Of a DNA stretch of 64,000 bases, positions 20,297 through 36,254 are shown piece by piece. Numbering within the stretch: position 1 is the stretch's first letter; each line of letters begins with the position of its first letter. The position numbers and the translations under genes were made by a program. The stretch lies in NCBI RefSeq assembly GCF_000507245.1, contig NC_023035.1:2085501-2149500 (forward strand). The letters are read 5' to 3'. The notes beneath the pieces were generated by a model that saw only the letters and a list, made by a program, of their open reading frames with translations, had not been told where the DNA came from and did no database searches. Source of the DNA: Salinispira pacifica. Its GTDB lineage: Bacteria > Spirochaetota > Spirochaetia > DSM-27196 > Salinispiraceae.

Positions 20297-22195
20297 ATGA
20301 TCGACAACAGAAGCGGCCTCACAATCGGAGACAGCAGCATCATACCCCGCAGGCTGCAATCAGCTTCCGTATCTGCAGATGATATTTCCCGGACACTTGA
20401 GCCCATGATTCTTTCGGCTTCCGGCTGGCGGAAAGTTTTTGCAGCTTCCGGGGATGAGGAAGATCAGACAGAAGATATTTCAGAATCCGATATGGTGCTT
20501 GCAGGGCTGATCGGCCTGAGCCTGGGGGAGTATCTTCTGGATAAGGCCGGCAAAAGCGGCAAGGGTACCACAGTGGTTGTGGGCTGCGATTCCAGGCCAA
20601 CAGGCCCCCTTCTGGCCGACGCCCTGATGCGGGTATGCAGCTCCCTGGGCATCAAAATACGATATCTGTTTATATCCGCGGCTCCTGAAGTTATGTCATA
20701 TGCACGGGTCACTCCCCAGGTTGACGCCTTCGCATACATATCAGCCTCCCACAATCCCATAGGGCATAACGGCTTCAAATTCGGACTGAAAAGCGGAGGA
20801 GTATTACCCGCCGCTGACGTTGAAGACCTGATTCACCGCTTCCGGGAGCACTGTAAAGCCGAAAAAAGCATTTCCCGGATACAGGATATGCTTGCATCAT
20901 TTCCCGAAGAACGCATGAATACATTCTTCCGTGAAAGCGCAGATTGGAAAAACCAGGCCCTTGAAGCATATGCGGACTTCAGCACCCGGGTTATCTGCGA
21001 CAGCTCCGATGAGAACAGGATATCCCTGCGAATGGAGGAGATGAAAGCGGCGTTCAGCAAGGCGGATATTGCCGTTCTCGGCGAACTGAACGGAAGCGCC
21101 AGAACCCTCTCCATCGACAAGGCGTTCTTTGAAAATCTTGGGGTGAAGATGCGTCTTATTAATCATATTCCCCGGCAGATTACCCACCGGATTGTTCCCG
21201 AGGGGCGAAGTCTGAATCTCTGCAAAGAGGAGCTGGAAAAAGCCCACAGCAGCGATCCGGCATTTATCCTGGGCTACGTTCCCGACAACGACGGCGACCG
21301 GGGCAATATTGTGTATATGGCCGATGACGGCCGGGCCAGGATTCTGGAGGCTCAGCAGGTGTTCGCCCTGGTGGCTCTGGCCGAGTCCGCCTGGCTTGAA
21401 TACAGCGGTCAGCTTGCAGATACCGGTGCCCGGGCAGCCATTGCGGTAAACGGCCCCACTTCCATGCGCATTGACGAAATCGCTTCGGTGTTCGGTCTTG
21501 AATGTGTCAGGGCCGAAGTTGGCGAGGCCAATGTGGTGGGGCTTGCATCCCGGCTCAGAGAGGACGGCTACATTGTACGTCTCATGGGAGAAGGCTCAAA
21601 CGGGGGGAATATTACCCATCCGGCGGCGGTACGGGATCCTCTCAACAGCATCGGTTCGATTATCAAGCTTCTTTCTCTCCGTGGGGACGGCGACTCGGCG
21701 GGGTTGTTCGAACTGTGGTGCAAACGAAGAGGTATTGAATACAAAGCGGATTTTTCCCTGGAGGACGTTCTCTCTTCCCTTCCTGAATATGTGACCACCA
21801 GTGCATATGAGGACCGGGCTTTGATGAAAATTACCGGAACCGACCATGTACGGCTGAAGGCTGCCTATGAGGATATTTTCCTCACGGACTGGGAAAAGCG
21901 GAAAGACCGGCTGAAAGACAGCTGGGGAATCCATTCCTGGGAAGAGATCAACACCGAAGGCAGCCGGGAGACGACCGGTTTCGGGCCATCGTTCCGCAGC
22001 GGAAAACACAAGGGAGGCCTGAAAATTCTTTTCCGGGATTCCTCCGGCGCCCCCTCAGCCTGCATGTGGATGCGGGGATCCGGTACCGAGCCGGTGTACA
22101 GAGTACTTGTGGATGTGAAAGGTCCCCGGCACGTTCTTGAGCAGGAGTTGCTCGAGTGGCACAGAGATATGATCCGCAGGGCGGATTCCTTGTAA
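20297..22195 (+). CDS. Phosphohexomutase (phosphoglucomutase/phosphomannomutase family)
   Basis: 632 residues. The phosphoserine loop YISASHNPIGHNGFKFG (about 153-169), the metal-binding loop PDNDGDRGN (about 329-337), the sugar-binding GEGSNGGNIT and the C-terminal phosphate loop RGSGTEPVYRV mark an alpha-D-phosphohexomutase. These enzymes interconvert hexose 1- and 6-phosphates in glycogen, cell-envelope and central sugar metabolism. It is longer than the usual 450-580 residues: it has an N-terminal extension of about 60 residues and extra C-terminal segments, as in some spirochaete homologues. Start chosen by GGAGGAAT seven bases upstream. A terminator follows directly, so it is probably monocistronic. 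Confidence 0.88.
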   Translation: MIDNRSGLTIGDSSIIPRRLQSASVSADDISRTLEPMILSASGWRKVFAASGDEEDQTEDISESDMVLAGLIGLSLGEYLLDKAGKSGKGTTVVVGCDSRPTGPLLADALMRVCSSLGIKIRYLFISAAPEVMSYARVTPQVDAFAYISASHNPIGHNGFKFGLKSGGVLPAADVEDLIHRFREHCKAEKSISRIQDMLASFPEERMNTFFRESADWKNQALEAYADFSTRVICDSSDENRISLRMEEMKAAFSKADIAVLGELNGSARTLSIDKAFFENLGVKMRLINHIPRQITHRIVPEGRSLNLCKEELEKAHSSDPAFILGYVPDNDGDRGNIVYMADDGRARILEAQQVFALVALAESAWLEYSGQLADTGARAAIAVNGPTSMRIDEIASVFGLECVRAEVGEANVVGLASRLREDGYIVRLMGEGSNGGNITHPAAVRDPLNSIGSIIKLLSLRGDGDSAGLFELWCKRRGIEYKADFSLEDVLSSLPEYVTTSAYEDRALMKITGTDHVRLKAAYEDIFLTDWEKRKDRLKDSWGIHSWEEINTEGSRETTGFGPSFRSGKHKGGLKILFRDSSGAPSACMWMRGSGTEPVYRVLVDVKGPRHVLEQELLEWHRDMIRRADSL

Positions 22196-22222
22196 GCTCG
22201 GCCCGCCCACTCCCGGGTGAAG

Positions 22223-22248
22223 AATACCGGCTTTTTAGGTATTTTTTT
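22223..22248 (+). terminator. Rho-independent terminator after the phosphohexomutase
   Basis: Stem AATACC (22223-22228)/GGTATT (22238-22243) with a 9-base loop, running into a T-tract at 22242-22248. It separates the phosphohexomutase from the hydrogenase-maturation operon. Confidence 0.75.
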
Positions 22249-22551
22249 ATAGATATTTATTAGTCTATTGTAGCCAAAGTCTGAAAACTCCCCTACACTG
22301 TAACCGTACCCACTGAGGGCTGCCCATTGGGAGGTCCGAGGTGATCATGCCAGTACGGCATAAACCACAAATTGTAAGGTCTAAAGTAAGGGAGACTGCA
22401 CGATGAGATACCACTACACCTGCCTGCCCGGCTCACACTCGAGCGGCTCAGTGCCCCGCGGCTCCGGGCCTCCAGCCTCACGGCTGCACGGTTCAGAATT
22501 GCCCGCTTCCATATTCCCGGTATATCTGCATCTCCTGAACAGGGAGGACAT
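22249..22551 (+). promoter_or_regulatory. Long structured leader region upstream of hydG
   Basis: About 300 bp between the terminator and hydG without a convincing gene. It includes a perfect hairpin ATGCC-AGTAC-GGCAT (22347-22361), an adjacent CCCATTGGGAGG segment, and a stretch at 22430-22500 with irregularly repeated CGGCTC elements. Upstream of it is AT-rich DNA suitable for a promoter, but no box pair is clearly consensus. A long 5' leader may regulate hydG post-transcriptionally. I could not match it to a riboswitch class. hydG has its own strong ribosome-binding site (GGGAGG). Confidence 0.4.
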
Positions 22552-24069
22552 ATGGCAGATCAGAATCGCAGCGAATCCGGCGGGGGTAGAATCCGAACCT
22601 GGATAGATCAGGTTGTTCGGCAGGACGAAATTGATCCCTACCTGGAACAGGGCAAACCGTTTATCAATGAAGAACGCATCTGGAGGGAAATCGCCTCGGG
22701 AAGCAATCCCACCCCGGAACGGGTGCGGGATATTCTGAAGAAAAGTCTTGAAATACAAAGTCTCAGCCCCGAGGAAACCGCCGTCCTGCTGAATGTGAAG
22801 GACCGGCAACTTCTCCGGGAGATGGCCGACACCGCAGCCCGGGTGAAACAGAAAGTATACGACTCGCGAATTGTCACTTTCGCCCCTCTTTATCTGTCAA
22901 ATCACTGCGTGAACTCATGTCTCTATTGCGGTTTCCGTCAGGACAACGGCGGCATGAAACGGAGCAGACTCTCCATGGAGGAGATCCGGCGGGAGACCGA
23001 AGCTCTTGCTGGGAAATTCGGCCATAAACGGCTGATTGTGGTGTACGGCGAACATCCCGACTCGGATATCGATTTTATGGAAAAGAGCATCAACCAGATT
23101 TATCAGGTACGGGCGAAAACCCGCAAGGGGCACGGGAGCATACGCAGGGTGAACGTGAATGCAGCACCCATGAGTGTGGAAAAACTCCGACGGCTGAAGA
23201 ACGTGGGTGTGGGGACCTATCAGGTATTTCAGGAAAGCTATCATCCCGGAACCTACTCACAGGCTCATCCGCCGGGAACATTAAAAGGCAATTATCTGTG
23301 GCGGCTTTTCAGCATGCACCGGGCCATGGACGCAGGCATTGACGATGTGGGAATCGGCGCATTGTTCGGACTGTATGACTGGCGTTTCGAGGTGATGGGT
23401 CTGGTGCATCATGCACGGGATCTTGAACGGCGCTACAACGGCATCGGCCCCCATACCATCAGTTTTCCCCGGCTTGAGCAGGCGGACAATGCTCCATTCC
23501 TGAACGACATGAAATACCGGGTTTCCGATGAGGATTTCCTCAAAATCATCACCATTCTGCGGCTGGCAGTACCCTATACGGGGTTGATTATCACCGCCAG
23601 AGAGCCTGCTCATATCCGGGATAAAGCGGTAAAACTTGGAGTTACCCAGATGGATGCCTCGACCCGTATCGGGCTGGGTGCCTACAGCAGGGAGACCGAC
23701 GGTCAGGAGATTTCCAGTCAGCAGTTTATGCTGGGTGATACCCGCAGCCTTGAGGAGCTTATCGGCGACCTTGCGGATATGGGATGCATTACCAGCTTCT
23801 GCACCGCCGGCTACCGGATCGGCCGTACCGGAGAGCGGATCATGAAACTGCTCAGGGAATGTCATGAGGGGGATTTCTGCAGAATGAACGCCGTCATTAC
23901 GTTCCGGGAATGGCTTGATGACTTCGCATCCCCGGAAATCAAGGTCAGGGGAGAAGCTCTGATAGCCAGGGAACTGGCAGGAATCAACCGGGATCTGCCC
24001 AAATATCAGGGGAAATTCCGTCCCATGTATGATAGCACCTGCCGGGGCAAAAGAGATTTATACCTATGA
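22552..24069 (+). CDS. hydG: [FeFe]-hydrogenase maturase HydG (radical SAM tyrosine lyase)
   Basis: 505 residues. HydG cleaves tyrosine to make the CO and CN- ligands of the hydrogenase H-cluster. The radical SAM motif CX3CX2C is intact (C119, C123, C126), and FQESYHPGTYSQAHP, GALFGLYDWRFE and DASTRIGLGAYS are typical. Known HydGs carry a C-terminal CX2CX22C motif (SFCTACYR) that holds the auxiliary cluster where the Fe(CO)2CN synthon forms. Here it reads SFCTAGYR: C417 and C443 are present, but the second ligand is G420 (codon GGC at 23809-23811). An extra cysteine, C412, lies nearby. The enzyme may be altered or use another ligand. Start has GGGAGG five bases upstream. Its stop overlaps the hydE start by four bases. 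Confidence 0.92.
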   Translation: MADQNRSESGGGRIRTWIDQVVRQDEIDPYLEQGKPFINEERIWREIASGSNPTPERVRDILKKSLEIQSLSPEETAVLLNVKDRQLLREMADTAARVKQKVYDSRIVTFAPLYLSNHCVNSCLYCGFRQDNGGMKRSRLSMEEIRRETEALAGKFGHKRLIVVYGEHPDSDIDFMEKSINQIYQVRAKTRKGHGSIRRVNVNAAPMSVEKLRRLKNVGVGTYQVFQESYHPGTYSQAHPPGTLKGNYLWRLFSMHRAMDAGIDDVGIGALFGLYDWRFEVMGLVHHARDLERRYNGIGPHTISFPRLEQADNAPFLNDMKYRVSDEDFLKIITILRLAVPYTGLIITAREPAHIRDKAVKLGVTQMDASTRIGLGAYSRETDGQEISSQQFMLGDTRSLEELIGDLADMGCITSFCTAGYRIGRTGERIMKLLRECHEGDFCRMNAVITFREWLDDFASPEIKVRGEALIARELAGINRDLPKYQGKFRPMYDSTCRGKRDLYL

Positions 24070-25190
24070 GCTGCTCGATGCTTTCCCGGAAGGAAATTCT
24101 CGAAATTCTCTCTATCAGCCGTCCCGATGAGATGCAGGATCTGTCCAGGCGGGCGGGTCTGTGTCTGGAAGAACAGCTGGGCAGCCGGGTGTATTACCGG
24201 GGGCTGATCGAATACTCAAACATATGCTCCCGGGACTGTCTTTACTGCGGTATACGCCGTTCCGCCGGGGATATTCAACGCTACACCCTGGCTGAGGAAG
24301 AGATACTCAATGCGGCGGATTTCGCAGCCGGGAAGGGGTACGGATCTCTGACGCTTCAAAGCGGTGAATCGGCTTCAGAAGCTGCGGTCGATTTTGCGGC
24401 GAGCATTATCCGAAAAATTAAAAAGAGAACCGCAAGCAGCCTGCTTCCCCGGGGGCTGGGTATTACCCTCTGCATCGGCGAACAGACCGAGGCCTCTTAC
24501 CGGCGGCTGTTCGAGGCCGGCGCACACCGCTATCTGCTGAGAATCGAGAGCAGCAACCCGGCCATGTACCGCAGAATCCATCCCCGGGGAGACAGTCTGC
24601 AGGGGAGAATCGACTGCCTGCGAAATCTGAAAAAGATTGGATTTCAGACCGGAACCGGGGTTATGATCGGTCTTCCCGGACAAAGCATTGAGGATCTTGC
24701 GGATGATGTAGAATTCTTTTACCGGGAGAATGTGGATATGATCGGTATGGGCCCCTTTATTCCCCATTCGGGTACCCCTCTGGGCGCTTTTGGAAACTAT
24801 CCCGCGGCTGAAACCCGGCTGGAGCTGAGTCTGAAAATGATAGCAGCCGTCCGTCTGGCCATTCCCGATGTGAATATTGCATCCACAACCGCCCTTCAAG
24901 CCCTCCACCCCATGGGAAGAGAGATGGGTCTGAATTTCGGGGCAAACGTACTTATGCCCGTAATCACCCCCGGTGAAGTGAGGAAACAGTATCAGCTTTA
25001 TGACGGTAAACCCTGCCTGGATGACAGTCCCGAGGACTGTGCAAACTGTCTTATCAGCCGGGTGGGAAGCACGGGGAGAAGCATAGCTTTCAACAGCTGG
25101 GGAGACCCCCTGCATTTTTTTGCAGACAGACATACACACACAGGAGATGAACATGAAGGAGCATGGGATGCAGAACGAGAAACAGTTTGA
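24066..25190 (+). CDS. hydE: [FeFe]-hydrogenase maturase HydE (radical SAM)
   Basis: 374 residues. The radical SAM motif is CX3CX2C at C54, C58 and C61 (NICSRDCLYCGIRR). TLQSGESAS, RIESSNPAMYRRIHP, GTGVMIGLPGQSIEDLADD and MGPFIPHSGTPLG follow the HydE pattern. A second set of cysteines near the C-terminus (PCLDDSPEDCANC, CX7CX2C) matches the optional surface cluster known in Thermotoga HydE. HydE processes the HydG iron synthon and helps build the dithiomethylamine bridge. ATGA overlap with hydG and overlap with the next gene show tight operon packing. Confidence 0.94.
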   Translation: MSCSMLSRKEILEILSISRPDEMQDLSRRAGLCLEEQLGSRVYYRGLIEYSNICSRDCLYCGIRRSAGDIQRYTLAEEEILNAADFAAGKGYGSLTLQSGESASEAAVDFAASIIRKIKKRTASSLLPRGLGITLCIGEQTEASYRRLFEAGAHRYLLRIESSNPAMYRRIHPRGDSLQGRIDCLRNLKKIGFQTGTGVMIGLPGQSIEDLADDVEFFYRENVDMIGMGPFIPHSGTPLGAFGNYPAAETRLELSLKMIAAVRLAIPDVNIASTTALQALHPMGREMGLNFGANVLMPVITPGEVRKQYQLYDGKPCLDDSPEDCANCLISRVGSTGRSIAFNSWGDPLHFFADRHTHTGDEHEGAWDAERETV

Positions 25191-26970
25191 ACAGCTCAGG
25201 TACGGCTTTGTGGGAATTATTGTCTCCCGGCAGGAAGCAGGAGGCAGGATACAGGAAGTTATTTCCCGTCATTCTGATATTCTTCTGGGACGGCTGGGTC
25301 TGCCCCATCTGGATGATGACCGAGTCTCCGTCATCACCCTGATCATCCGCTCTGACACCGACCGGCTTGGAAGCCTCACCGGACAGCTGGGGAAAATCCC
25401 CGGCGTCACCGTCAAGTCGGGACTTGCACGGACTCCCGAGGCAGCTGCCGAGAGCACCCCCCGGAGAAACGAGATGCTCAGTAATTCCCATCCATTCCCT
25501 GCGGAGAGCGAAACCGCCGCAGCCTCCCTCACCTACCGCTTCTCGCCATATTCCATGCCCAGGGAACTGATTGAAGCCGGACTCGAGGTAAAACTGGCTG
25601 CGGCCCTGTGCAACGCAAGGCTCGGCTACCTGTCTCAGAACCAGCTGGACACAATCCAGAGCCGAATATCCCGTATCCGCAGTATGGAAAACGGGGAATT
25701 GAACAGCCTGTTCCCTCTGGATCCCTACCAGGGGGGAGCGGGGACCTCGTTCCATATGAATCTCAATGAAGCCATAGCCCTGGACAACGGACTGGACCCG
25801 TACCAGGTTGTTAATCTACATCAGTCAACCAACGATGTTCTGCCCACCGCATTGAAGCTGATGCTTATGCGCAATTTCATGAAGCTGGAAACCAACCTGG
25901 GGGATTTTCAGATGCTTCTTCAGGAAAAAGAGGAAGCGTACAGCGAGGTACTCATGACCGGACGAACCCAGCTCCGGGACGCTCAGGCGGTTAGTCTTGG
26001 GGGATTGTTTGCTTCCTGGGCTCAGGCTGTTGCAAGAGACCGCTGGCGAACTTTTAAAGCCCGGGAGCGGCTCAAGGAGATTAACATGGGAGGGACCGCA
26101 GTTGGTACCGGTGCCGGAGCTCCCCGCAGCTATGTGCTCAAGGCGGCATCCGTTTTGAGGGAAATCAGCGGACTTCCTGTGAGCAGAGCCGATGATCTAA
26201 TGGATGCAACTGCCAATTACGACTCGGTTGTGGAAGCCTTATCATCCCTGAATGTGCTGGCGGTGAATCTTGAGAAGATATGCTCGGATGTGAGGCTTCT
26301 GGCAAGCGGACCTGAAGGAGGAATGGGCGAACTTGAAATTCCCCGGCTCATCCGGGGAAGCAGCATAATGGCAGGAAAGATCAACCCTGTAATACCGGAA
26401 GCGGGAATGCAGATCTGTGAGAAGCTCAGAAGCAATCACCAGCTGATATCCCGGCTATCGGCTTCAGGGGAGCTGCAGCTCAATGCCTTCTGGCCCATGA
26501 TTGCTTACAGCAGCTGGGAAAGCCAGATGCTTTGCATCAATTTTATTCCCTCTCTTCATGAATACATTGGAATGATCACCCCGCGACGGGAAAAAATTGA
26601 AGAAAATCTCAAGGGAAGCGGAGCATACAATCTGATCCTGCTGCCGGTTATAGGCTACACCCATCTTGAGCGTCTTCTTCAGATCTGCCAAACACACAGC
26701 TGCACGCCCCCTGAACTGATAAAATCATGGAATATTCTCACTGAGGATGAGCAGCACAGGCTTTTCGGATCCCGGGCGCTTACCGGACTGGGATACGATG
26801 AAACGCTGTACGAGACAATAAGAACCCGCAAGTCCGCCCGGCTTTTCCGGTACATTGACCGTGAATACAGCTTTCAGCACCCCGGCTCACCCGGGGAAGC
26901 GTCTCCCGAACATCAAGATCAACATCAGCATGAACATTTGCAGCATCAGCAGGAGCTTAACGATGACTAA
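25168..26970 (+). CDS. TM1266-like regulator domain fused to aspartate ammonia-lyase
   Basis: 600 residues from the ATG at 25168 (AAGGAG six bases upstream); an ATG at 25153 has an almost equal site, and both overlap the end of hydE. Residues about 12-90 (YGFVGIIVSRQ...HSDILLGRLGLP...VSVITLIIRSDTDRLGSLTGQLGKIPGVTVKS) match the small ACT/NikR-like TM1266 family, putative regulators found with iron-only hydrogenases. Residues about 120-575 form an aspartase/fumarase superfamily enzyme: GGAGTSFHMNLNEAIA, TGRTQLRDAQ and the signature GSSIMAGKINPV. Aspartase (aspartate to fumarate plus ammonia) is often linked to hydEFG, and the lyase has been proposed to supply ammonia for the dithiomethylamine ligand. 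The tail is His/Gln-rich (HQDQHQHEHLQHQQ), possibly metal-binding. Confidence 0.85.
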   Translation: MQNEKQFEQLRYGFVGIIVSRQEAGGRIQEVISRHSDILLGRLGLPHLDDDRVSVITLIIRSDTDRLGSLTGQLGKIPGVTVKSGLARTPEAAAESTPRRNEMLSNSHPFPAESETAAASLTYRFSPYSMPRELIEAGLEVKLAAALCNARLGYLSQNQLDTIQSRISRIRSMENGELNSLFPLDPYQGGAGTSFHMNLNEAIALDNGLDPYQVVNLHQSTNDVLPTALKLMLMRNFMKLETNLGDFQMLLQEKEEAYSEVLMTGRTQLRDAQAVSLGGLFASWAQAVARDRWRTFKARERLKEINMGGTAVGTGAGAPRSYVLKAASVLREISGLPVSRADDLMDATANYDSVVEALSSLNVLAVNLEKICSDVRLLASGPEGGMGELEIPRLIRGSSIMAGKINPVIPEAGMQICEKLRSNHQLISRLSASGELQLNAFWPMIAYSSWESQMLCINFIPSLHEYIGMITPRREKIEENLKGSGAYNLILLPVIGYTHLERLLQICQTHSCTPPELIKSWNILTEDEQHRLFGSRALTGLGYDETLYETIRTRKSARLFRYIDREYSFQHPGSPGEASPEHQDQHQHEHLQHQQELNDD

Positions 26971-28210
26971 AACTCCACGGGGTCTTCGGCCCCACATTAT
27001 TGTCTGCGGCACGGTGAATTCAGGAAAATCCACGTTTCTCAACAGGTTCACAGGAAAGGATGTGTCCATTACATCTTCCAGCCGGGGAACTACCACCGAT
27101 CCGGTATATATAAATATGGAGCTGCTTCCTTTCGGGCCGGTAACCCTGGTGGACACTCCGGGCCTGGATGATGAGGGAGAACTGGGCCAGCAGCGGATTG
27201 AACGGGCCCGTCGGCTTATTGCCTCGGGAGATCAGCTGATTTTCCTCACCCGTCCGGATGCGTGGAACCGTTCAACTGTGAAGCTGATAAACGAATGCGC
27301 AAAATCGGTGCATAACCTCCAGCTGGTATTTACTCACCGGGATCTTCCCGAAGAATCCGCCATGGTGAATGAATTCATGAAACAGTTTGAAGCCCGGCAG
27401 GGTGACGCTGAGGGTCTCGCAGCAAATATCACCCCCCACCATATCAGCGGAACAACCGGGGCGGGTCTTGAAGCCTTGAGCCGGCAGCTCATCGCTGAAT
27501 TGGAAAAGGCGAAAAAACAGGAGCGCAGTCTCCTGCAGGATATGGTCCGGGAATACCAGCTGGTAATGATGGTTGTTCCCATCGACCTGGAAGCTCCCAA
27601 AGGACGGCTCATCCTCCCCCAGGTTCAGGCCATACGGGAAGTACTGGATGCGGACGGGGCAACCCTCACGGTGAAGGAGCGGGAGATTGACTGGGCCCTC
27701 TCACTTTTGAGACAGAAACCTGATCTTGCCGTCACCGACAGTCAGGCGGTGTTGAAGGCTGCAGGATCCATACCCGAGGATATCCCTTTAACCACCTTTT
27801 CCATACTGTTCAGCAGGCTGAAAGGGGATCTGAAGACATTTGTAGATGCATCAGATGTGATTGACGATCTGCAGGACGGTGACAGAATTCTCATTGCTGA
27901 AACATGCACCCATAAAACCATGTGCGACGATATCGGCAGGGTCAAGATCCCCCGCTGGCTGAGACAGTACAGCGGTAAAGACCTGGATATCAGAACTCTT
28001 GGAGGAGAGTTTCCGACTGATCTGGATAATTACCGGCTGATTATTCACTGCGGGGGCTGCATGATTACCCGGAAACGGATGCTTCAGCGCATGGGACTGG
28101 CCGCCCACTCCCGGGTGCCCATTACCAATTACGGAATCGCAATCAGCAAGCTTCATCATGTGCTTGAACGGGTTCTCCGTCCCTTCACAATGTCCGGTGA
28201 CGGGGCGTAA
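26963..28210 (+). CDS. hydF: [FeFe]-hydrogenase maturation GTPase HydF
   Basis: 415 residues from the ATG at 26963, chosen for AGGAG seven bases upstream; an in-frame ATG at 26855 lies inside the preceding gene. The N-terminal Ras-like GTPase has GTVNSGKST (about 16-24), SSRGTTTDP and VDTPGLDDEG. The C-terminal domain has the cluster motif CTHKTMC and, about 50 residues later, HCGGCMITR, the HydF CXH...HCX2C pattern. HydF is the scaffold that assembles and delivers the diiron subcluster to the hydrogenase. It is the last gene of the hydG-hydE-aspartase-hydF unit and overlaps the previous stop by eight bases. No hydrogenase structural gene lies in the window. Confidence 0.94.
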   Translation: MTKTPRGLRPHIIVCGTVNSGKSTFLNRFTGKDVSITSSSRGTTTDPVYINMELLPFGPVTLVDTPGLDDEGELGQQRIERARRLIASGDQLIFLTRPDAWNRSTVKLINECAKSVHNLQLVFTHRDLPEESAMVNEFMKQFEARQGDAEGLAANITPHHISGTTGAGLEALSRQLIAELEKAKKQERSLLQDMVREYQLVMMVVPIDLEAPKGRLILPQVQAIREVLDADGATLTVKEREIDWALSLLRQKPDLAVTDSQAVLKAAGSIPEDIPLTTFSILFSRLKGDLKTFVDASDVIDDLQDGDRILIAETCTHKTMCDDIGRVKIPRWLRQYSGKDLDIRTLGGEFPTDLDNYRLIIHCGGCMITRKRMLQRMGLAAHSRVPITNYGIAISKLHHVLERVLRPFTMSGDGA

Positions 28211-28284
28211 CTCACCATAACCCAATGTTTTCTCCAATAAAACGCGTTTGATCAGTGAAACCTGAATCATCTCTCATTTTTTTG

Positions 28285-28313
28285 TTGACAGATCCGCTTC
28301 CCGGGGTGAAAAT
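28285..28313 (+). promoter_or_regulatory. Promoter of the LIV/KASIII cluster
   Basis: TTGACA (28285-28290), a 17-bp spacer and GAAAAT (28308-28313): consensus -35 and a 4/6 -10. The expected start is at about 28320, within or just before the inverted repeat at 28323-28343. Confidence 0.7.
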
Positions 28314-28322
28314 CAAATAAAA

Positions 28323-28343
28323 TGAGAACCGATTCAGTTTTCA
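28323..28343. promoter_or_regulatory. Candidate operator: 7-bp-arm inverted repeat
   Basis: TGAGAAC (28323-28329), seven bases, GTTTTCA (28337-28343): a 21-bp inverted repeat with one mismatch. It sits at the expected transcription start, where a repressor would block initiation. The tandem-TetR gene at the end of the cluster is the obvious candidate ligand-responsive regulator. Confidence 0.55.
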
Positions 28344-28355
28344 CAGGAGGAGAGT

Positions 28356-29573
28356 ATGAATCACAAGTTCTTGCACGCGGCTCTCATTCTGATGCTTTTG
28401 GCAGGTGCAGTTTTTGCCGAAGGTTCATCGGAAGGAGATCCTATCAAATTCGGAGGCATCTGGCCTCTGGGAGACATCACCGGAGATCAGGGAAGCAAAG
28501 CGGCCCGGATCGCCATTGATGAGATCAACGAACAGGGCGGTCTTCTGGGACGTCCGGTTGAGCTGGTGGTAATCGACAGTGAGCTCAGCCCTGAAAAGGG
28601 TGCGGCTGCGGTTGAACGCCTGGCAACCATCGACCAGGTTGATTTCTTTGTGGGAGGTATGTCCAGCGGAGTACATCTTGGCCAGATCCCTGTCATGAAG
28701 ACCTACCAGAAAATCACCATGTGGACCGGTGCCGCCAGTCACCTGGCTGAAGAAGCGGTGGGTGAAAACCAGGACTGGTATTTCCACCTCCATCCCTGGG
28801 ACTACAACCAGGGCGCATCCTATGTGGAAGGCTGGAACGCCATCGCACAGGAATATCCGGAAATCTCCATTGACCGCTGGTTTCTGGCTTATGAAGAAGG
28901 TGCATTCGGAAGCGCATCATATTCTGCAACCCAGGCTCTGTTTTCCGATATGGAAATAGACGGTGAAGCCTTCCAGTCTGCTGCAGTGGGCGGCGGAGAC
29001 TACACCGCGGTTCTGGAACGGGCAAAAGCCTATGATCCCGATGTATTCATCTGGGCCGGATACGATGCCGACGCCCTGCCCCTCATGGAGCAGTCCAAGG
29101 CTATCGATTTTGCACCTCCCCTCTATGTGGGTGCACCTCCGGGATGGCCTGCATCCTTCGGCGAATCCAATCTTGCGGAAAACGTTACCCTTTACGGCAT
29201 GTGGGCCCCCAGCCTGAACGAAGTGAGCGATGTGAGCAAAACCTTCTATGACGGCTATATGAGCAAATACGACAGCGAACCCGCTACGTATTTTGCTCCC
29301 CTGAGCTACTCAGCCATCCATATTATTGCTGAAGCAGTTGAGCGGGCGGGCACTCTGGACAAGGAAGCGGTAATCGCCGAATTGCAGAAAACCCAGTACG
29401 AAAGTGCCCTGGGTGAAACCATCACTTTCAGCCCTTCCAACATTATCAGCAATCAGGGAATACGCCAGCAGAAGATTCTGCAATGGCAGAACGGACGCCA
29501 GGAAGTAATTTGGCCCTTCGAATTTGCCACATCCGAGCCGGTGTATCCATTTACACCCTGGAGCGAGCGCTAA
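28356..29573 (+). CDS. LIV-type ABC transporter substrate-binding protein
   Basis: 405 residues with a signal peptide (hydrophobic AALILMLLAGAVFA, cleavage near residue 21; no lipobox cysteine), hence periplasmic. Type I periplasmic-binding fold of the LivJ/LivK/amide-urea class: KFGGIWPLGDITGDQGSKAARIAIDEINEQGG, VERLATIDQVDFFVGGMSSG, AYDPDVFIWAGYDADALPLMEQ. This class binds branched-chain amino acids but also aromatic acids, short-chain carboxylates, amides and urea. The ligand cannot be read here; the neighbouring CoA-transferase, thiolase and dehydrogenase argue for a carboxylic acid rather than an amino acid. AGGAGGAG lies before the ATG. A strong hairpin follows the gene. Confidence 0.9.
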   Translation: MNHKFLHAALILMLLAGAVFAEGSSEGDPIKFGGIWPLGDITGDQGSKAARIAIDEINEQGGLLGRPVELVVIDSELSPEKGAAAVERLATIDQVDFFVGGMSSGVHLGQIPVMKTYQKITMWTGAASHLAEEAVGENQDWYFHLHPWDYNQGASYVEGWNAIAQEYPEISIDRWFLAYEEGAFGSASYSATQALFSDMEIDGEAFQSAAVGGGDYTAVLERAKAYDPDVFIWAGYDADALPLMEQSKAIDFAPPLYVGAPPGWPASFGESNLAENVTLYGMWAPSLNEVSDVSKTFYDGYMSKYDSEPATYFAPLSYSAIHIIAEAVERAGTLDKEAVIAELQKTQYESALGETITFSPSNIISNQGIRQQKILQWQNGRQEVIWPFEFATSEPVYPFTPWSER

Positions 29574-29583
29574 CACCTTGTAT

Positions 29584-29608
29584 CCCGGGCGGCGTACACC
29601 CGCCCGGG
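29584..29608 (+). terminator. Intercistronic hairpin after the binding-protein gene
   Basis: Perfect 9-bp stem CCCGGGCGG/CCGCCCGGG, 7-base loop, followed by only three T. Such hairpins between a binding protein and its permease genes typically protect the upstream mRNA and partly terminate, giving excess binding protein. Confidence 0.7.
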
Positions 29609-29662
29609 TTTCATCCACAGCTAAAGAACTGAATCTGTTCGATCGTATTTTGGAGTAACTTT

Positions 29663-30586
29663 ATGAGTACATCTAAAATTGTCAGGATAGCTGGATTTTC
29701 AGCGGGAGCCCTGTTCGTGATTATGCTCATCGTTCTGAAGCCCACAGCCCTGATCTACGGGATACAGCGTGCGGGGATATACGCGGCCATCGCGATACCC
29801 ATGGCACTGATTTTAGGGATTGTACATATCGTTAACCTGGCCCACGGCGAGATGATGATGGTTGCGGCATATCTGAGCTACTATCTTGCACGAACCTTCG
29901 GTCTGGATCCCCTGCTTTCGGCAATCCCCACGGGAATTATCATGTTCCTTTTCGGATTGATGATTTTCCGCACAACAATTCAACATACCTTAAAAGCACC
30001 CGAACTTAATCAGCTGATCCTCACCTTCGGGGTGGCAATGGTTCTCAGCCAGACAGTGAATCTCATTGCCACAAGCCAGCCCAGAAAACTGAGCCTGGAC
30101 TATGTAAGTGCCAGCGCAACTCTGGGTGACATCAGCTTTGGAATTTATGACTTCGTTTTTCCGGTGGTTGCAATCATATTCCTGATTGTGCTGCTGCTGT
30201 TTCTGAAACGCACCAAGCTGGGAAAAGCCGCCCTTGCGGTGGGACAGAATCCCAACGGTGCACAGATTGTGGGAATTAATGTTCAACTCACATACGCCCT
30301 GATTTTCGGAATAGCATCCATGCTCATAGGTATTTTCGGCGGCTTCTTTCTTACGAAGTTCTCGATTTTCCCCGCAGTGGGAGGCAGCTATACCATGAAA
30401 TCGTTCTGCCTTGTTGCCATGGCGGGAATCGGAAATCTTCCCATGGTGGCGGCGGCCAGCCTGCTCCTGGGTATTGCCGAGAGTTCCATAATGGCGGTTC
30501 CCCACGGTGCGCCCTGGGCACCGATGATTTTCTTCGTACTGATCGTGGTCGTTATTCTGGTACGGAGTTTCAGGAGGGCATCATGA
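29663..30586 (+). CDS. livH: LIV-type ABC transporter permease (LivH-like)
   Basis: 307 residues, eight or so transmembrane helices. It has the LivH features YGIQRAGIYAAIAIPMALILGIVHIVNLAHGEMMMVAAYL in the first third and the transmission-loop region LGKAALAVGQNPNGAQIVGINVQLTYALIFGIASMLIGIFGGF. It forms half of the membrane channel for the adjacent binding protein. Its end overlaps livM by four bases (ATGA). Confidence 0.92.
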   Translation: MSTSKIVRIAGFSAGALFVIMLIVLKPTALIYGIQRAGIYAAIAIPMALILGIVHIVNLAHGEMMMVAAYLSYYLARTFGLDPLLSAIPTGIIMFLFGLMIFRTTIQHTLKAPELNQLILTFGVAMVLSQTVNLIATSQPRKLSLDYVSASATLGDISFGIYDFVFPVVAIIFLIVLLLFLKRTKLGKAALAVGQNPNGAQIVGINVQLTYALIFGIASMLIGIFGGFFLTKFSIFPAVGGSYTMKSFCLVAMAGIGNLPMVAAASLLLGIAESSIMAVPHGAPWAPMIFFVLIVVVILVRSFRRAS

Positions 30587-31602
30587 GCAGCGCAGATCTG
30601 AAAGCCTTGCAAAAAGATAACGCATACAACAGAAATCTGGAAATCATCTTCATGGTGGTGGGGGCAATTCTTCTGCTGGCGCCCATGTTCGCCGGGCCCT
30701 ATGCCCGGATTATCGGTCGGTCGGTAATCACCTACATGATTCTGGCGGTAAGCTGGGACATGCTTGTACGTTCGGGACAGCTTTCCTTCGGTATAGCCGG
30801 ATTTTTCGGTCTGGGAGGATACGCCGCCACCGTGCTTGCAGCAAACTATAATATTCCCGGTATTGCAGCCATCATTCTCGGTGCACTGCTGTCAGGGGTT
30901 GTGGCCTACGGTTTGGGCCTGATCATTCTGCGCCTCCGGGGCATGTACTTTGCAATTACCACACTGGCGCTTGCGGAAATTTTCCGGATTATCATGCACA
31001 ACTGGACGCCGGTGACCGGAGGACCCAACGGAAAACTGGTTCCACAGGTGCTTTTCGCCGGGAACTCCTATCTTCAATACGGATTCATGGTTGTGATGGC
31101 AGTGCTGGTAATCGCATTGAGTGAATATATGAGACGGAGCAAAATTCACTATGCCCTCACTGCCATTCATGACAATGAAGTGGTGGCAAAATCCAACGGG
31201 ATAAATATCTACAAGAATCTTCTGTTTATATTTGCGGTTGTGTCGGCAATCCAGGCCCTTGCAGGGGGCGGTTATGCCCATCTGTTCGGTTTTGTCAGTC
31301 CGGAATCCAACTTCAATGCCAACTACACCCTCATACCCCTTGCTATTGCCCTGTTCGGCGGCATGTACTCCACCTGGGGTCCGGTTGTGGGTGCGGTAAT
31401 CCTGGGTGTGATGGGCGAGTTTCTGAAGCTCTACATCCCCTACGGCCATCTGGTGGTATACGGAATCATCATTATTCTGGTTCTGCTCTTTATGCCCCAG
31501 GGAGTAGTGGGAATTTTCAAAGCGAAGCTGTTCAAAAACACCAGCAACTACCCCAGCAAGGAAGAACTGGAACTGTCTGAGACCAAAGGAGAACCTGCAT
31601 GA
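30583..31602 (+). CDS. livM: LIV-type ABC transporter permease (LivM-like)
   Basis: 339 residues, about nine membrane helices. The typical segments VSWDMLVRSGQLSFGIAGFFGLGGYAATVLA, LRLRGMYFAITTLALAEIFRIIM and SPESNFNANYTLIPLAIALFGGMYSTWGPVVGAVILG identify LivM. It is the second pore-forming subunit. Its start overlaps livH and its end overlaps livG by four bases each, showing translational coupling through the transporter genes. Confidence 0.92.
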   Translation: MSSADLKALQKDNAYNRNLEIIFMVVGAILLLAPMFAGPYARIIGRSVITYMILAVSWDMLVRSGQLSFGIAGFFGLGGYAATVLAANYNIPGIAAIILGALLSGVVAYGLGLIILRLRGMYFAITTLALAEIFRIIMHNWTPVTGGPNGKLVPQVLFAGNSYLQYGFMVVMAVLVIALSEYMRRSKIHYALTAIHDNEVVAKSNGINIYKNLLFIFAVVSAIQALAGGGYAHLFGFVSPESNFNANYTLIPLAIALFGGMYSTWGPVVGAVILGVMGEFLKLYIPYGHLVVYGIIIILVLLFMPQGVVGIFKAKLFKNTSNYPSKEELELSETKGEPA

Positions 31603-32318
31603 GTGAACTGCGAACTGAAAACCTCACCATCTCCTTCGGGGGACTTGTGGCCGTGGACTCGGTGAACCTGAGCCTGAAAAGCGGGGAAATCCTGGGCATC
31701 ATCGGCCCCAACGGTGCCGGCAAAACCACCTTTATCAATCTTATTGCCGGTATTCACAACCCCACCCGGGGAACCGTGTATCTGGACGGGGAAGATATCA
31801 CCGGTAAGCCCGCTCACGACCGGGCGGCCATGGGTATCAGCAGAACCTTCCAGCTGATCAACCCTTTGAGAAACCTGACCCTTCTGGAAAATGTGATGAC
31901 CGGGTACCTCTTTGCTTCAAAAATGAACACCCACGATGCAAGGAATGCCGCTGCACGGTTGTGCCTGGACCTTGGGCTGGACAGACTGAACCGGCAGACC
32001 AGCAATCTGAATATTCTTGAAACCAAGAAGATGGAGATTGCCAAGGCTCTGGCCTGCAATCCGAAAATTCTGTTTCTGGATGAGGTGATGGCAGGTCTTA
32101 ACTCCACGGAGACCAAGGAAGCCATCCGGCTGATCAAGCATATCGCTGAACGGCAGAATCTTGCAGTAGGCGTGGTTGAGCATGTAATGGGGGTTATCAC
32201 CTCCCTTACCAACCGGGTGATCGTTCTGGATAACGGACAGCTCATTGCAGACGGTCCGTATACCGAGGTGAGCCGGAATGAGCGGGTAAAAACCGCATAC
32301 CTGGGAGGAGCAGTCTGA
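31599..32318 (+). CDS. livG: LIV-type ABC transporter ATPase (LivG-like)
   Basis: 239 residues. Walker A GIIGPNGAGKTTFINL (about 33-48), Q-loop GISRTFQLINPL, a divergent signature NLNILETKKMEIAKAL, Walker B KILFLDEVMAGLN and H-loop GVVEHVMG. The LNILETKK signature in place of LSGGQQ is a divergent but recognisable feature of some LivG proteins. It ends one base into livF (TGATG). Confidence 0.9.
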   Translation: MSELRTENLTISFGGLVAVDSVNLSLKSGEILGIIGPNGAGKTTFINLIAGIHNPTRGTVYLDGEDITGKPAHDRAAMGISRTFQLINPLRNLTLLENVMTGYLFASKMNTHDARNAAARLCLDLGLDRLNRQTSNLNILETKKMEIAKALACNPKILFLDEVMAGLNSTETKEAIRLIKHIAERQNLAVGVVEHVMGVITSLTNRVIVLDNGQLIADGPYTEVSRNERVKTAYLGGAV

Positions 32319-33019
32319 TGTTAAGTATAAAAAATGCAAAAGCAGCCTACGGAAAAATTCAGGTGCTTCACGGTCTCAGCCTGGATGTTGGCAGAGGCTC
32401 AGTGGGGCTGTTCGGCCCCAACGGTGCGGGAAAGACCACCCTGATCAATACTATTCTGGGTCTGGTGCCCCTCCAGTCGGGAAAAATCGTGTTCGATTTC
32501 AAGGATGTGACCACACGCCCCACCCATGAACGGGTTCGCCTGGGAATATCCGTAGTTCCCCAGGAGCGGGAGCTTTTTCCCTGGCTCAGCGTATACGAAA
32601 ATCTGGTAATCGGGGCTGAAAACACTCCTCTGGGTAGGGACGATATCCCTCAGACCCTGGAGGAAGTGTACGCCATCTTCCCCATTCTCAGGGAACGGCA
32701 TGGTCAGCTGGCTGGTACGCTCAGCGGAGGACAGCAGAGAATGCTTGCGGTTGGACGGGCTCTGATGGCACGGCCGAAGCTGCTCATTCTGGATGAACCC
32801 AGCCTGGGGCTCCAGCCGTCAATAGTCCATGAGCTGTTCAATATTCTCAAAGAGATGAAGGAACGTGTGGGGGTACTGATCACCGAGCAGAACGTCCGGG
32901 AAAGCCTCCGTGTTGTGGACAAAGGATACATCATCGAAAACGGACGGATCGTACTCAGCGGAAATGCCGATGAACTGGCCAGCAATCCGGAAGTTGAAAA
33001 AGCGTACCTTGGACTGTAG
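32318..33019 (+). CDS. livF: LIV-type ABC transporter ATPase (LivF-like)
   Basis: 233 residues. Walker A GLFGPNGAGKTTLINT (about 31-46), VVPQERELFPWLSVYENL, canonical signature GTLSGGQQRMLAVGRAL, Walker B LLILDEPSLGLQPSIV and H-loop residue replaced by Gln in LITEQNVRES, as is normal for LivF. It completes the five-component importer. The next gene starts nine bases later with a GGAG site. Confidence 0.93.
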   Translation: MLSIKNAKAAYGKIQVLHGLSLDVGRGSVGLFGPNGAGKTTLINTILGLVPLQSGKIVFDFKDVTTRPTHERVRLGISVVPQERELFPWLSVYENLVIGAENTPLGRDDIPQTLEEVYAIFPILRERHGQLAGTLSGGQQRMLAVGRALMARPKLLILDEPSLGLQPSIVHELFNILKEMKERVGVLITEQNVRESLRVVDKGYIIENGRIVLSGNADELASNPEVEKAYLGL

Positions 33020-33028
33020 GAGATAAAC

Positions 33029-34054
33029 ATGGCTCAGATCGGAATTTTGGGACTGGGAACATATACACCGGAAAAACACATGGATGCCGGCGATATTGCG
33101 GAAAAATCCGGAATTCCGGAAAACGTTATCCGGGAAAAATTCGGGGTGGACAGGAAACCGGTTCCCGGTCCCGGAGACACAACAAGCTTTATGGGCGTTC
33201 AGGCTGCCAGAGAAGCCATAAAAATGGCAGGAATCGATGCCGGTGATATAGATGTGGTGATCTGGAACGGCGGTCAGCACAAGGATTATTTGAACTGGCT
33301 CGCGGGACTTCATGTGGCCCGGGAAATCGGTGCAGACAATGCCTGGAGCTTCGACATGGAGGCCATGTGCGGTTCCATGATGGCAGGCATGGAAGTGGCC
33401 CGAAGCCTGATGATAGCCAACGAAGGCTATAAAACCGTTCTCCTTGTAAGCGGCTACCGAAACGGCGATATGGTGGATTACTCGGTGAAGGAGACTTCCT
33501 TCATGTTCGATATCGGCGCGGGAGGGGCCGCCATGGTTCTGGGCCGCAACTGCGGAAAGAACAGCATTATCGGGACTGCCTTCCGGGGCGACGGAAGTTT
33601 CTCCACCGACTGTGTGGTGAAAACCGGAGGCAGCAAAAACTGGCCTCCCCGGCCGGAAGATACTCACAACATGCACTTTGTCATAGACGATGTTGACAGT
33701 TTCAAGAAGAAACTCGGCGAACGCACCCTTCCCAATTTCTATCAGGTTATCAGGGAAAGTCTGGCAAAAGGGGACATGAGCGACAAGGACATCGACTACC
33801 TTGCCATTCTCCACTTCAAACGGAGTACCCACAATGCGGTGCTGGAAGAACTGGGAATTACAGAAAATCAGACCACCTATCTCAGCGACTACGGCCATGT
33901 GGGACAGAATGATCAGATCATCTCCATCCTGGAAGGGCTGAAAGCCGGAAAGATTACGGATGGAGACAATATTGTGATGGTGGGAGCAGGAATCGGATTT
34001 GTCTGGGCGGCGGCAACCGTTCGCTGGGGAACAGATACCGGGAACAACACATAA
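33029..34054 (+). CDS. KASIII-like (thiolase-superfamily) ketosynthase with Cys-His-His active site
   Basis: 341 residues, FabH/HMG-CoA-synthase fold (IGILGLGTYTPEKHMDAGDI; FDIGAGGAAMVLG). The acyl-accepting cysteine is C114 (DMEAMCGSMMAG). The usual His-Gln-Ala-Asn block is replaced by H262-F-K-R (LAILHFKRSTH), and the usual YGN asparagine by H290 (YGHVGQND). A conventional fatty-acid KASIII would have Cys-His-Asn, so this is not a housekeeping FabH. It may condense or cleave a non-ACP thioester, since the cluster has CoA-transferase and thiolase genes but no acyl carrier protein. Lies nine bases after livF. A 30-base hairpin follows. Confidence 0.8.
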   Translation: MAQIGILGLGTYTPEKHMDAGDIAEKSGIPENVIREKFGVDRKPVPGPGDTTSFMGVQAAREAIKMAGIDAGDIDVVIWNGGQHKDYLNWLAGLHVAREIGADNAWSFDMEAMCGSMMAGMEVARSLMIANEGYKTVLLVSGYRNGDMVDYSVKETSFMFDIGAGGAAMVLGRNCGKNSIIGTAFRGDGSFSTDCVVKTGGSKNWPPRPEDTHNMHFVIDDVDSFKKKLGERTLPNFYQVIRESLAKGDMSDKDIDYLAILHFKRSTHNAVLEELGITENQTTYLSDYGHVGQNDQIISILEGLKAGKITDGDNIVMVGAGIGFVWAAATVRWGTDTGNNT

Positions 34055-34062
34055 AATACAAA

Positions 34063-34092
34063 GCACCCGGAGCGGAAATCCGCCGCGGGTGC
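34063..34092 (+). terminator. Intercistronic hairpin between KASIII-like and fabG-like genes
   Basis: Two stacked stems: outer GCACCCG (34063-34069)/CGGGTGC (34086-34092), inner GCGGA/TCCGC. No U-tract, so an mRNA-processing or stabilising element is more likely than full termination. Confidence 0.6.
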
Positions 34093-34127
34093 GGAATAGA
34101 GAAAACATAATACGTAAGGAGTATCAC

Positions 34128-34865
34128 ATGAACCTTGATGGAAAGGTATGCATTATCACCGGGGGAGCCCGGGGAATCGGACGGAAAATTGTGGAAACCA
34201 TGGCGGAAGCAGGCGCAAAAGCGGTCTACGCCCTGGATATGGCTTTTGACGGCTTTGATGAGGTGACAAAGGCCCTCCCCAATGTGAAAAGCGAGAGTGC
34301 AGATGTAACCAAATCCGATGCGGTAAAAACCGTTGTGGAGAAGATCTGGGAGGCGGAGGGCCGGATCGATGTTCTGGTAAACAATGCCGGAATTACCCGG
34401 GATAATCTGATCCAGAAAATGTCTGATGATGACTGGAATGCGGTTATCAGTGTAAATCTCACCGGCGTGTTTAATCTTACCCGGGAGATCGGTCCCAGAA
34501 TGATGAATCAGGGCAGCGGCTCTATTATCAACATGGCGAGCATTGTGGGCGAAGTGGGCAATGTAGGACAGTCCAATTATGCGGCAACCAAAGGCGGAGT
34601 TATCTCCATGGCAAAAACCTGGGCCAAAGAATTTGCCCGGAAAGGCGCACAGGTACGGTCCAACGCCATTGCTCCGGGATTCATCCGTACTCCCATGACT
34701 GAAAAAATGCCCCAGAAAGTGCTGGACGCCATGGTGGGGAAAACCACTCTTGGAAGGATGGGCGAACCGGAAGATATTGCCAATGCGGCCCTCTTTCTGG
34801 CAAGCGATGCATCCTCCTTCATTACCGGACAGGTGCTCAGCGTGAACGGCGGACTTACCCTCTGA
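34128..34865 (+). CDS. 3-oxoacyl-ACP/3-hydroxyacyl-CoA reductase (FabG-like SDR)
   Basis: 245 residues, short-chain dehydrogenase. Cofactor loop TGGARGIGRKI (about 11-21), NNAGITRDNLIQKM, catalytic Ser in INMASIVGEVGNVGQ and YxxxK (YAATKGG), then the C-terminal FITGQVLSVNGGLTL. Start at 34128 from TAAGGAG eight bases upstream. In this setting it probably oxidises or reduces a 3-hydroxy/3-oxoacyl thioester rather than serving fatty-acid synthesis, as its neighbours are CoA-handling enzymes. It could be the 3-hydroxyacyl-CoA dehydrogenase step feeding the thiolase two genes on. Confidence 0.88.
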   Translation: MNLDGKVCIITGGARGIGRKIVETMAEAGAKAVYALDMAFDGFDEVTKALPNVKSESADVTKSDAVKTVVEKIWEAEGRIDVLVNNAGITRDNLIQKMSDDDWNAVISVNLTGVFNLTREIGPRMMNQGSGSIINMASIVGEVGNVGQSNYAATKGGVISMAKTWAKEFARKGAQVRSNAIAPGFIRTPMTEKMPQKVLDAMVGKTTLGRMGEPEDIANAALFLASDASSFITGQVLSVNGGLTL

Positions 34866-34886
34866 GCCCCGGCCAACAACAACAAT

Positions 34887-34915
34887 TTCAGCCCGGGCTT
34901 CGGCCCGGCGCTGAA
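34887..34915 (+). terminator. Intercistronic UUCG hairpin
   Basis: CCGGGC (34893-34898), TTCG tetraloop, GCCCGG (34903-34908), extended by outer TTCAGC/GCTGAA pairing. Exceptionally stable. No U-tract; it lies just before the ribosome-binding site of the CoA-transferase gene. Confidence 0.65.
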
Positions 34916-34934
34916 GCTACGAGGAAGGTATACT

Positions 34935-36254
34935 ATGGCTGAATGGAAACAGGCATACCAACAAAAACTGCGAAGCATGGAAGATGCAGTTCGTGCACTC
35001 CCGAAAAACGCAGCCATTATTATGGGCATGGCTTCCATGGAAAGTCAGGGATTCATGTCCCAAATTCACAAATTCTCGGACCATTTTGAACACCTCAGAG
35101 TGCTGTCCTGTCTGAATATGAATTCATACGATTTCTGTGAAGATCCCCGGTACGAGGGAACTTTCATGAATGAAAACTGGTTTTTCGGCCCCTCCAACCG
35201 GAAAGCAGCAAAGTTGGGATACAAATTGGTAGACTTCATCCCCAACAACCTGCATCAGGCGGGAACCAATAAATTGGCGGCTCTGAAAGAGGAAGGGGCT
35301 ACCATCGTGTACTGGGGGCCTGTAACTCCCATGCAGGAGAATAGCGGATTTTTCAATCTGGGTGTATCCAATGTCTATGAGGCCGAAGTCATAGATGCAG
35401 CAGATATGGTGATATTTGAGGTTAATCCACAGGTACCCTGGATCCACGGTGACACCCAGGTTCATATCTCCCAGGCTGATATGCTGGTGGAGTTTGAGTC
35501 TGAGATCCCCACAATTCCTGTTCTGGAACCGGGAGAAACCGAGAAGGAGATTGCAAAGCACATTGCAGACCTGATTGAGGACGGAAGCACCCTTCAGATC
35601 GGTATCGGTGGAATTCCCAACGCAGTGGCATCTTTGCTGGAGCATAAGAAAGATCTGGGGATTCACACCGAAATGTTTACCGAAAGCATGATCGATCTGT
35701 TTGAAAGCGGTGCGGTGACCAACGGGAAAAAGACCCTCTGGCCGGGTAAATTCGTATTCACCTTTGCTCTGGGTTCCAAACGGATGTATGAATGGCTCGA
35801 CAATAACCCCTCTGTGCTTGAACTCAGGGGCAGCTATGTTAACGATCCCTACGTGATCGCACAGAACGAAAAAATGATCAGCATTAATACTGCTATCACA
35901 ATAGACCTGACCGGTCAGGTGTGTTCCGAGAGTCTGGGCCCGGTACAGTATTCGGGAACCGGAGGACAGCTGGACACCCACCGGGGCGCTCAGAAGTCGA
36001 AAGGTGGAAAGGGGTTTATCGCCCTCCGCTCCACTGCGAAAAAGGGAACCATTTCCACCATCGTCCCCATGCTTCCTGCGGGATCTGCAGTTACGGTTCC
36101 AAGACAGGACCTGGACTGGGTGGCCACAGAGTTCGGCGCAGTCCATCTGCAGGGCCGCACATCAAGTGAACGGGCGGAGCTTCTCATTTCAATTGCTCAC
36201 CCCGACTTCCGGGAAGAGCTGGAGAAGGAAGCTGCAAAGCTGGGATACTTGTAA
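34935..36254 (+). CDS. Acetyl-CoA hydrolase/CoA-transferase family (Cat1/Cat2-like)
   Basis: 439 residues. The N-terminal half is of the acetyl-CoA hydrolase/transferase type; the second half carries LQIGIGGIPNAVAS, the likely catalytic glutamate in TEMFTESMIDLFESG, and the C-terminal YSGTGGQLDTHRGAQKSKGGKGFIAL and TEFGAVHLQGRTSSERAELLI. These are hallmarks of butyryl-CoA:acetate and 4-hydroxybutyrate CoA-transferases. It would activate an imported acid by moving CoA from acetyl-CoA, sparing ATP. The presence of EFGAV(H)LQG at the end and the intact glycine loop argue for a functional enzyme. GAGGAAGG lies before the ATG. Confidence 0.9.
   Translation: MAEWKQAYQQKLRSMEDAVRALPKNAAIIMGMASMESQGFMSQIHKFSDHFEHLRVLSCLNMNSYDFCEDPRYEGTFMNENWFFGPSNRKAAKLGYKLVDFIPNNLHQAGTNKLAALKEEGATIVYWGPVTPMQENSGFFNLGVSNVYEAEVIDAADMVIFEVNPQVPWIHGDTQVHISQADMLVEFESEIPTIPVLEPGETEKEIAKHIADLIEDGSTLQIGIGGIPNAVASLLEHKKDLGIHTEMFTESMIDLFESGAVTNGKKTLWPGKFVFTFALGSKRMYEWLDNNPSVLELRGSYVNDPYVIAQNEKMISINTAITIDLTGQVCSESLGPVQYSGTGGQLDTHRGAQKSKGGKGFIALRSTAKKGTISTIVPMLPAGSAVTVPRQDLDWVATEFGAVHLQGRTSSERAELLISIAHPDFREELEKEAAKLGYL

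Follow-up and report, generated by a model that had tools for sequence, protein, structure and literature searches.

The window, positions 2,085,501-2,149,500 (64,000 nucleotides) in the genome of the salt-lake spirochaete Salinispira pacifica (3,782,798 bp, single contig), contains the hydrogenase maturation genes hydG, hydE and hydF. Between hydE and hydF sits a gene in which a TM1266 domain and a lyase share one reading frame. The features of the locus are:

22552..24069, + strand: hydG (TIGR03955, 437 bits)
24066..25190, + strand: hydE (TIGR03956, 320 bits)
25168..26970, + strand: fused TM1266-lyase gene, a single frame of 600 aa from ATG 25168
25198..25419, + strand: TM1266 domain with an ACT/NikR-C-terminal fold (PF21699, TIGR03959, fold match 2NZC)
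25420..25473, + strand: linker, with a C6 tract at 25457-25462 (pLDDT 47-67)
25463..25476, + strand: GGAG at 25463-25466 and in-frame ATG 25474, the start position of the relatives' separate lyases
25507..26802, + strand: fumarase/aspartase-superfamily lyase domain (PF00206, NF008909; fold match to aspartase 3R6V)
26356..26391, + strand: catalytic SS loop GSSIMAGKINPV, from alignment to 1J3U and 1JSW, with invariant columns
26908..26967, + strand: C-terminal tail of 20 residues rich in His (5) and Gln (6)
26963..28210, + strand: hydF (TIGR03918, 462 bits), whose first 8 nt it shares with the fused gene

The three neighbours all passed their equivalog cut-offs as HydG, HydE and HydF. A promoter scan of 22100-28500 found no promoter-like site before 27861, and the number of sites was not above chance; this agrees with a single operon but proves nothing. 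Three genes of the genome matched the large-subunit family of [FeFe]-hydrogenases, and a glycine-cleavage H-protein (GcvH) is encoded as well. Downstream, the stretch 28356-36254 carries genes of a branched-chain-amino-acid-type ABC transporter (binding protein PF13458), followed by ketoacyl-synthase-like, short-chain-dehydrogenase-like and CoA-transferase-like frames.

The fused reading frame

The fused frame spans 627 codons from stop to stop. Its longest form runs uninterrupted on the + strand from TTG 25120 to the stop at 26970 and encodes 616 aa, and the probable starts are ATG 25147, 25153 or 25168, with AGGAG or GGAG upstream. The reading made earlier from the sequence alone (below, the sequence-only reading) had placed both parts in one frame at 25168-26970, and hmmscan and the frame coordinates confirm this; its start is one of the three likely ones. 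Its domain ranges (about 12-90 and 120-575) lie near those found here, about 11-84 for TM1266 and 114-545 for the lyase, counted from M25168. An AlphaFold model of the whole fusion had a mean pLDDT of 77. The linker is rich in Ala, Pro, Glu and Ser, as genuine interdomain linkers frequently are.

The tail formed by the last 20 residues is absent from the five closest relatives and was predicted in the fusion model with low confidence, as disorder would be. It is unique to S. pacifica, and its end overlaps the start of hydF by 8 nt. The suggestion that it may bind metal thus found no support and remains a guess.

The TM1266 domain

The N-terminal domain matched PF21699 (TM1266-like) with 68 bits against a cut-off of 27 (hmmscan, E 6.9e-19), over the whole of the model (1-74 of 74) and residues 27-100 of the 616-aa form. 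It also scored 70.4 bits against TIGR03959, above the cut-off of 60.8 for the TM1266 family, and its location with hydEFG is that of the family. As profile matches, this and the match of the lyase domain are far beyond chance. Modelled alone with 36 relatives, the domain was predicted very confidently (pLDDT 96.7). The top fold match of this model was TM1266 itself (2NZC, Z 15.1, rmsd 1.3, 77 residues), followed by the C-terminal domains of NikR (Z 12.6 to 10.9), while the ACT domains of RelA, acetohydroxyacid synthase and phosphoglycerate dehydrogenase matched with Z of about 10-12. The domain had been read from the sequence as TM1266-type and ACT-like, and PF21699, TIGR03959 and the ACT and NikR fold matches bear this out. 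A small-molecule site of the ACT kind would be the natural inference from the modelled fold.

Five residues are invariant among 37 TM1266 sequences (R33, G35, P37, G63 and G66), and S. pacifica keeps them all. A search of the 37 domains for conserved His or Cys found none, and the S. pacifica domain contains no Cys. We therefore rejected a reading of TM1266 as a NikR-type nickel sensor: the conserved ligands are absent from the 37 domains, and the fold alone is common. The S. pacifica domain does resemble the NikR C-terminal domain and the ACT domains of RelA, IlvN/acetohydroxyacid synthase and SerA in its fold (Z 10-12.6) and in the layout of a sensor tied to an effector. Unlike NikR, it lacks the conserved His/Cys and a NikR-type nickel site, and its effector is a lyase.

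The structure 2NZC was solved in 2006 under the title of an uncharacterised protein, and we found no functional role for TM1266 in the open-access literature searched. In Thermotoga neapolitana the expression of the TM1266 gene shifts together with that of hydE and hydG (PMC7039931). The S. pacifica domain is like the rest of the family in its scores over the curated cut-offs, its fold and its place in a hyd operon, but family members are usually small stand-alone proteins, and here TM1266 is the N-terminal domain of an enzyme.

The lyase domain

The second domain matched PF00206 (Lyase_1) with 214 bits against a cut-off of 27 (hmmscan, E 3.9e-63). Among the more specific models, aspartate ammonia-lyase was the best match and fumarase lower (358 against 245 bits). 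The NF008909 'aspartate ammonia-lyase' match, 358.5 bits over residues 138-561 of the 616-aa form, fell short of the cut-off of 510, and the TIGR00839 AspA equivalog score of 264.6 bits fell short of 681.2. The motifs of the fumarase/aspartase superfamily are present, namely the SS loop GSSxMxxKxNP, QSTND and GRT. In an alignment with 1J3U and 1JSW, the active-site positions T101, S140, T141, N142, T187, S318, S319, K324 and N326 of the Bacillus aspartase were all matched. At the equivalent of H188 the lyase shares Gln with E. coli AspA (1JSW); fumarases have His. The fold of the fusion model was closest to aspartases (3R6V, TM 0.83 by target length). The earlier assignment as an aspartase-like lyase is thus upheld by PF00206, NF008909 and the kept active-site residues. 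As far as motifs tell, the lyase probably acts like an aspartase, without reaching equivalog-level membership. The genome has no second aspartase-like gene; a fumarase (37%, GRTHLQD) and a single weak match to the superfamily are all that it has besides.

About 20 residues of the canonical N-terminus are missing from the lyase. The segment RxExDxLGExxVPxxAYYG is absent both from it and from the lyases of relatives in the same order; hyd-linked lyases of several other phyla retain it. The loop after GAGTS is shortened in the S. pacifica lyase (25474-26802).

In a tree of 87 lyases (window 25474-26967 and L050-L139), the S. pacifica lyase grouped with five hyd-linked lyases of the same order with support of 100/100, its exact position inside the group being unsure because its end branch is long (1.54). 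Rows lacking hyd neighbours numbered 63, and all but two fell in one clade of 61 (100/99) that contained no hyd-linked row; the stretches of the two exceptions, L066 and L080, may be too short to show hyd genes. The hyd label changed 3 times on the tree against 21 in shuffles. Lyases that adjoin hyd genes in many phyla fall outside the well-supported clade of housekeeping AspA and FumC. The tree suggests an old, dedicated hyd-linked lyase lineage.

Split genes in relatives

In five genomes of the same order (L054-L058) the genes follow one another as hydG-hydE-TM1266-lyase-hydF, within the limits of the contig or of the stretch retrieved, with TM1266 and the lyase as separate genes that overlap by 4, 4, 4 or 1 nt or lie 1 nt apart. 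The frame difference from TM1266 to the lyase is 2 in four of these relatives, 1 in the fifth and 0 in S. pacifica. The view that the fusion joins two normally separate hyd-linked genes is therefore sound. In a genome of the same family (L048), a lone TM1266 gene precedes hydG and the locus has no lyase.

The N-termini of the separate lyases, such as MNVLSDSHTHAAGAVYLLSPY, can be aligned with MLSNSHPFPAES...LTYRFSPY of S. pacifica. As the relatives' lyases begin there, ATG 25474 lies at the site of the old start codon. It follows the GGAG at a spacing of 7 nt, and a free lyase may also be made from it. The motif itself is weak evidence of use, since a share of the other internal ATGs nearby have one like it, and the position is the stronger argument. 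As the ancestral step of the joining, a one-base insertion would give a frame difference of 1 where most relatives have 2, and the loss of a stop by substitution, four linker codons each being one base from a stop, would explain the joining equally well.

Distribution of the fusion

The PF21699 search covered about 1,290 distinct genomes, roughly 340 of them bearing TM1266. Matches were found in 106/393 genomes of the home phylum, 209/398 of the phylum of a Clostridium, 97/199 of that of a Halanaerobiaceae genome (nearly all the same genomes as in the Clostridium-phylum set), 16/247 of that of a Desulfovibrionaceae genome, 8/198 of that of a Draconibacterium genome, and 14/61 of the relatives set. 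Among the matches listed from the roughly 1,290 genomes, a TM1266-lyase frame occurred in S. pacifica only, and we rejected the idea of a widespread architecture. A profile search of genome contigs showed no second fusion among the matches listed, and a plasmid search found ordinary aspartases only. Three other long TM1266 frames were discarded as lyase fusions: G766 (433 aa) and G505 (359 aa) are fusions with ABC ATPases, and G588 (330 aa) is a long frame, read from stop to stop, with a weak match at its end.

The fusion is a real, lineage-specific joining of two old hyd-operon neighbours; the parts are ordinary and the joining is new.

Proposed role of the fusion in H-cluster assembly

The aspA gene occurs in clusters together with hyd genes, in most cases close to hydF, and E. 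coli AspA with 15N-aspartate labels the nitrogen of dithiomethylamine (DTMA) in vitro (Pagnier et al. 2024, PMC11736057); TM1266 goes unmentioned in that paper. The S. pacifica lyase is like the hyd-operon AspA described there in its place beside hydF, its catalytic motifs and the proposed supply of ammonium. It differs in lying behind TM1266, in lacking the canonical N-terminal segment and in its long branch. The sequence-only reading was right to link the gene to H-cluster assembly.

The explanation that we favour for the whole, and hold at an even chance, is that two old neighbours have fused into an ammonium donor that is dedicated to the hyd system and carries a sensor. Beside HydF, the lyase half would deaminate aspartate, yielding fumarate and ammonium. 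This ammonium would enter aminomethyl-lipoyl-H-protein and so become the DTMA nitrogen that bridges the H-cluster of [FeFe]-hydrogenase. The TM1266 half would be a ligand-sensing domain of the ACT/NikR type, tied to each lyase chain, which on a small-molecule signal would adjust lyase activity or dock the lyase to the maturation machinery. Aspartate is the putative substrate of the fused lyase, which misses the AspA equivalog cut-off and lacks the canonical N-terminal residues. Ligand sensing by the TM1266 half, and through it control in cis, are likewise inferred. Regulation of the lyase in cis is plausible and a fair hypothesis, about as probable as its opposite. As a natural hint, so far from one species, the fusion suggests that TM1266 and the lyase work together.

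The limitation to one species and the surviving start codon with its GGAG count against this explanation. With the old start kept inside the frame, the fusion may not be the sole product. Moreover, one genome with TM1266 (G423) has no lyase-superfamily match at all, and two others (G048 and G505) have weak ones (24-26%), which argues that the general job of TM1266 is not lyase control. Most likely TM1266 serves maturation more broadly and the fusion reveals one partner. The feedback control that the sequence-only reading had proposed stays a hypothesis, the fusion being confined to one species in the sample, with a possible internal start, and TM1266 occurring in a genome without an aspartase.

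These observations would fit a recent and nearly neutral joining, in which the lyase is translated mainly from 25474 and TM1266 keeps a role of its own with no control in cis. The in-frame ATG with its GGAG lies exactly where the relatives' lyases start, the fusion is limited to one species, a single inserted base would split the frame, and TM1266 survives where the lyase is missing. However, a comparable motif precedes about 16% of the internal ATGs in nearby genes (25/158), both domains are intact with the family-invariant residues kept, and the linker has the composition of true interdomain linkers. We regard this joining without consequence as possible but rather doubtful.

The lyase may alternatively not be an aspartase, acting instead on another fumarate-type substrate that maturation or fermentation needs; TM1266 would then sense the pathway concerned. 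The missed AspA cut-offs, the absent canonical N-terminus, the shortened loop after GAGTS, and the separate clade with its long branch all fit such an enzyme, but every aspartase catalytic residue is kept, Gln stands at H188 as in E. coli AspA, and aspartate ammonia-lyase outscores fumarase as the family match. This makes another substrate improbable.

An error of sequencing or assembly at the C6 tract is more improbable still, for although one base inserted in 25420-25473 would end TM1266 at about 25482 and leave two genes overlapping by about 10 nt, much as relatives carry separate overlapping genes, it would give a frame difference of 1 where 4/5 relatives show 2, C/G runs of at least 6 number 25 in the window so that the tract is not unusual, and the genome of strain L21-RPul-D2T (CP006939.1) was sequenced on three platforms, with PacBio at 365x and checks by Illumina and 454 (PMC4511686). 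The sequence-only reading had named separate genes in relatives, together with a local frameshift or a mis-joined start, as what would overturn it. The relatives' genes are indeed separate, but a mis-joined start is excluded because a single open frame runs through both domains and the linker, and a sequencing error is unlikely.

TM1266 adjoins hydrogenase maturation genes across phyla, and the type of lyase to which it is fused can supply the nitrogen of the H-cluster bridge in vitro. The ammonium donor with a tied sensor can be placed in a wider, tentative picture, which we think rather unlikely, in which TM1266, as a portable sensor of the ACT/NikR-like kind, governs how H-cluster precursors are supplied by acting on the proteins that provide them. 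In Salinispira the provider would be the aspartase that donates the nitrogen; in some Clostridia it would be the ATPase of an importer of the FecCD type, for iron complexes. If this is true, the fusions are the first functional handle on a family that is uncharacterised and accompanies hydrogenase maturation genes in many phyla. The S. pacifica fusion is one protein in which it can be measured directly what TM1266 does to an activity that is easy to assay.

Other fusions offer analogies. Two spirochaetes of the same order have a cNMP-binding domain (PF00027) at the N-terminus of an ordinary aspartase (L167:4483-6450, - strand; L168:4364-6433, + strand), and the hyd loci of these spirochaetes (L049 and L161) are without a hyd-linked lyase. 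These proteins too have a small-molecule-binding N-terminal domain on an aspartase; they differ in that the sensor domain is another, the enzyme an ordinary AspA and the gene outside the hyd operon. By analogy, they and the TM1266-ATPase fusions support the reading of a sensor tied to a donor, and the two TM1266-ATPase fusions, being independent, support that of a portable sensor module. In those two Clostridia TM1266 is the C-terminal domain of an ABC ATPase of the FecE type (L154:5769-7067 and L155:7225-8301, both - strand). The neighbouring genes encode a FecCD permease, HydE, HydF, a NifH-like protein and two NifD/K-like proteins, with FeoB in L154; a cluster of nitrogenase-like genes sits here inside a locus for hyd maturation.
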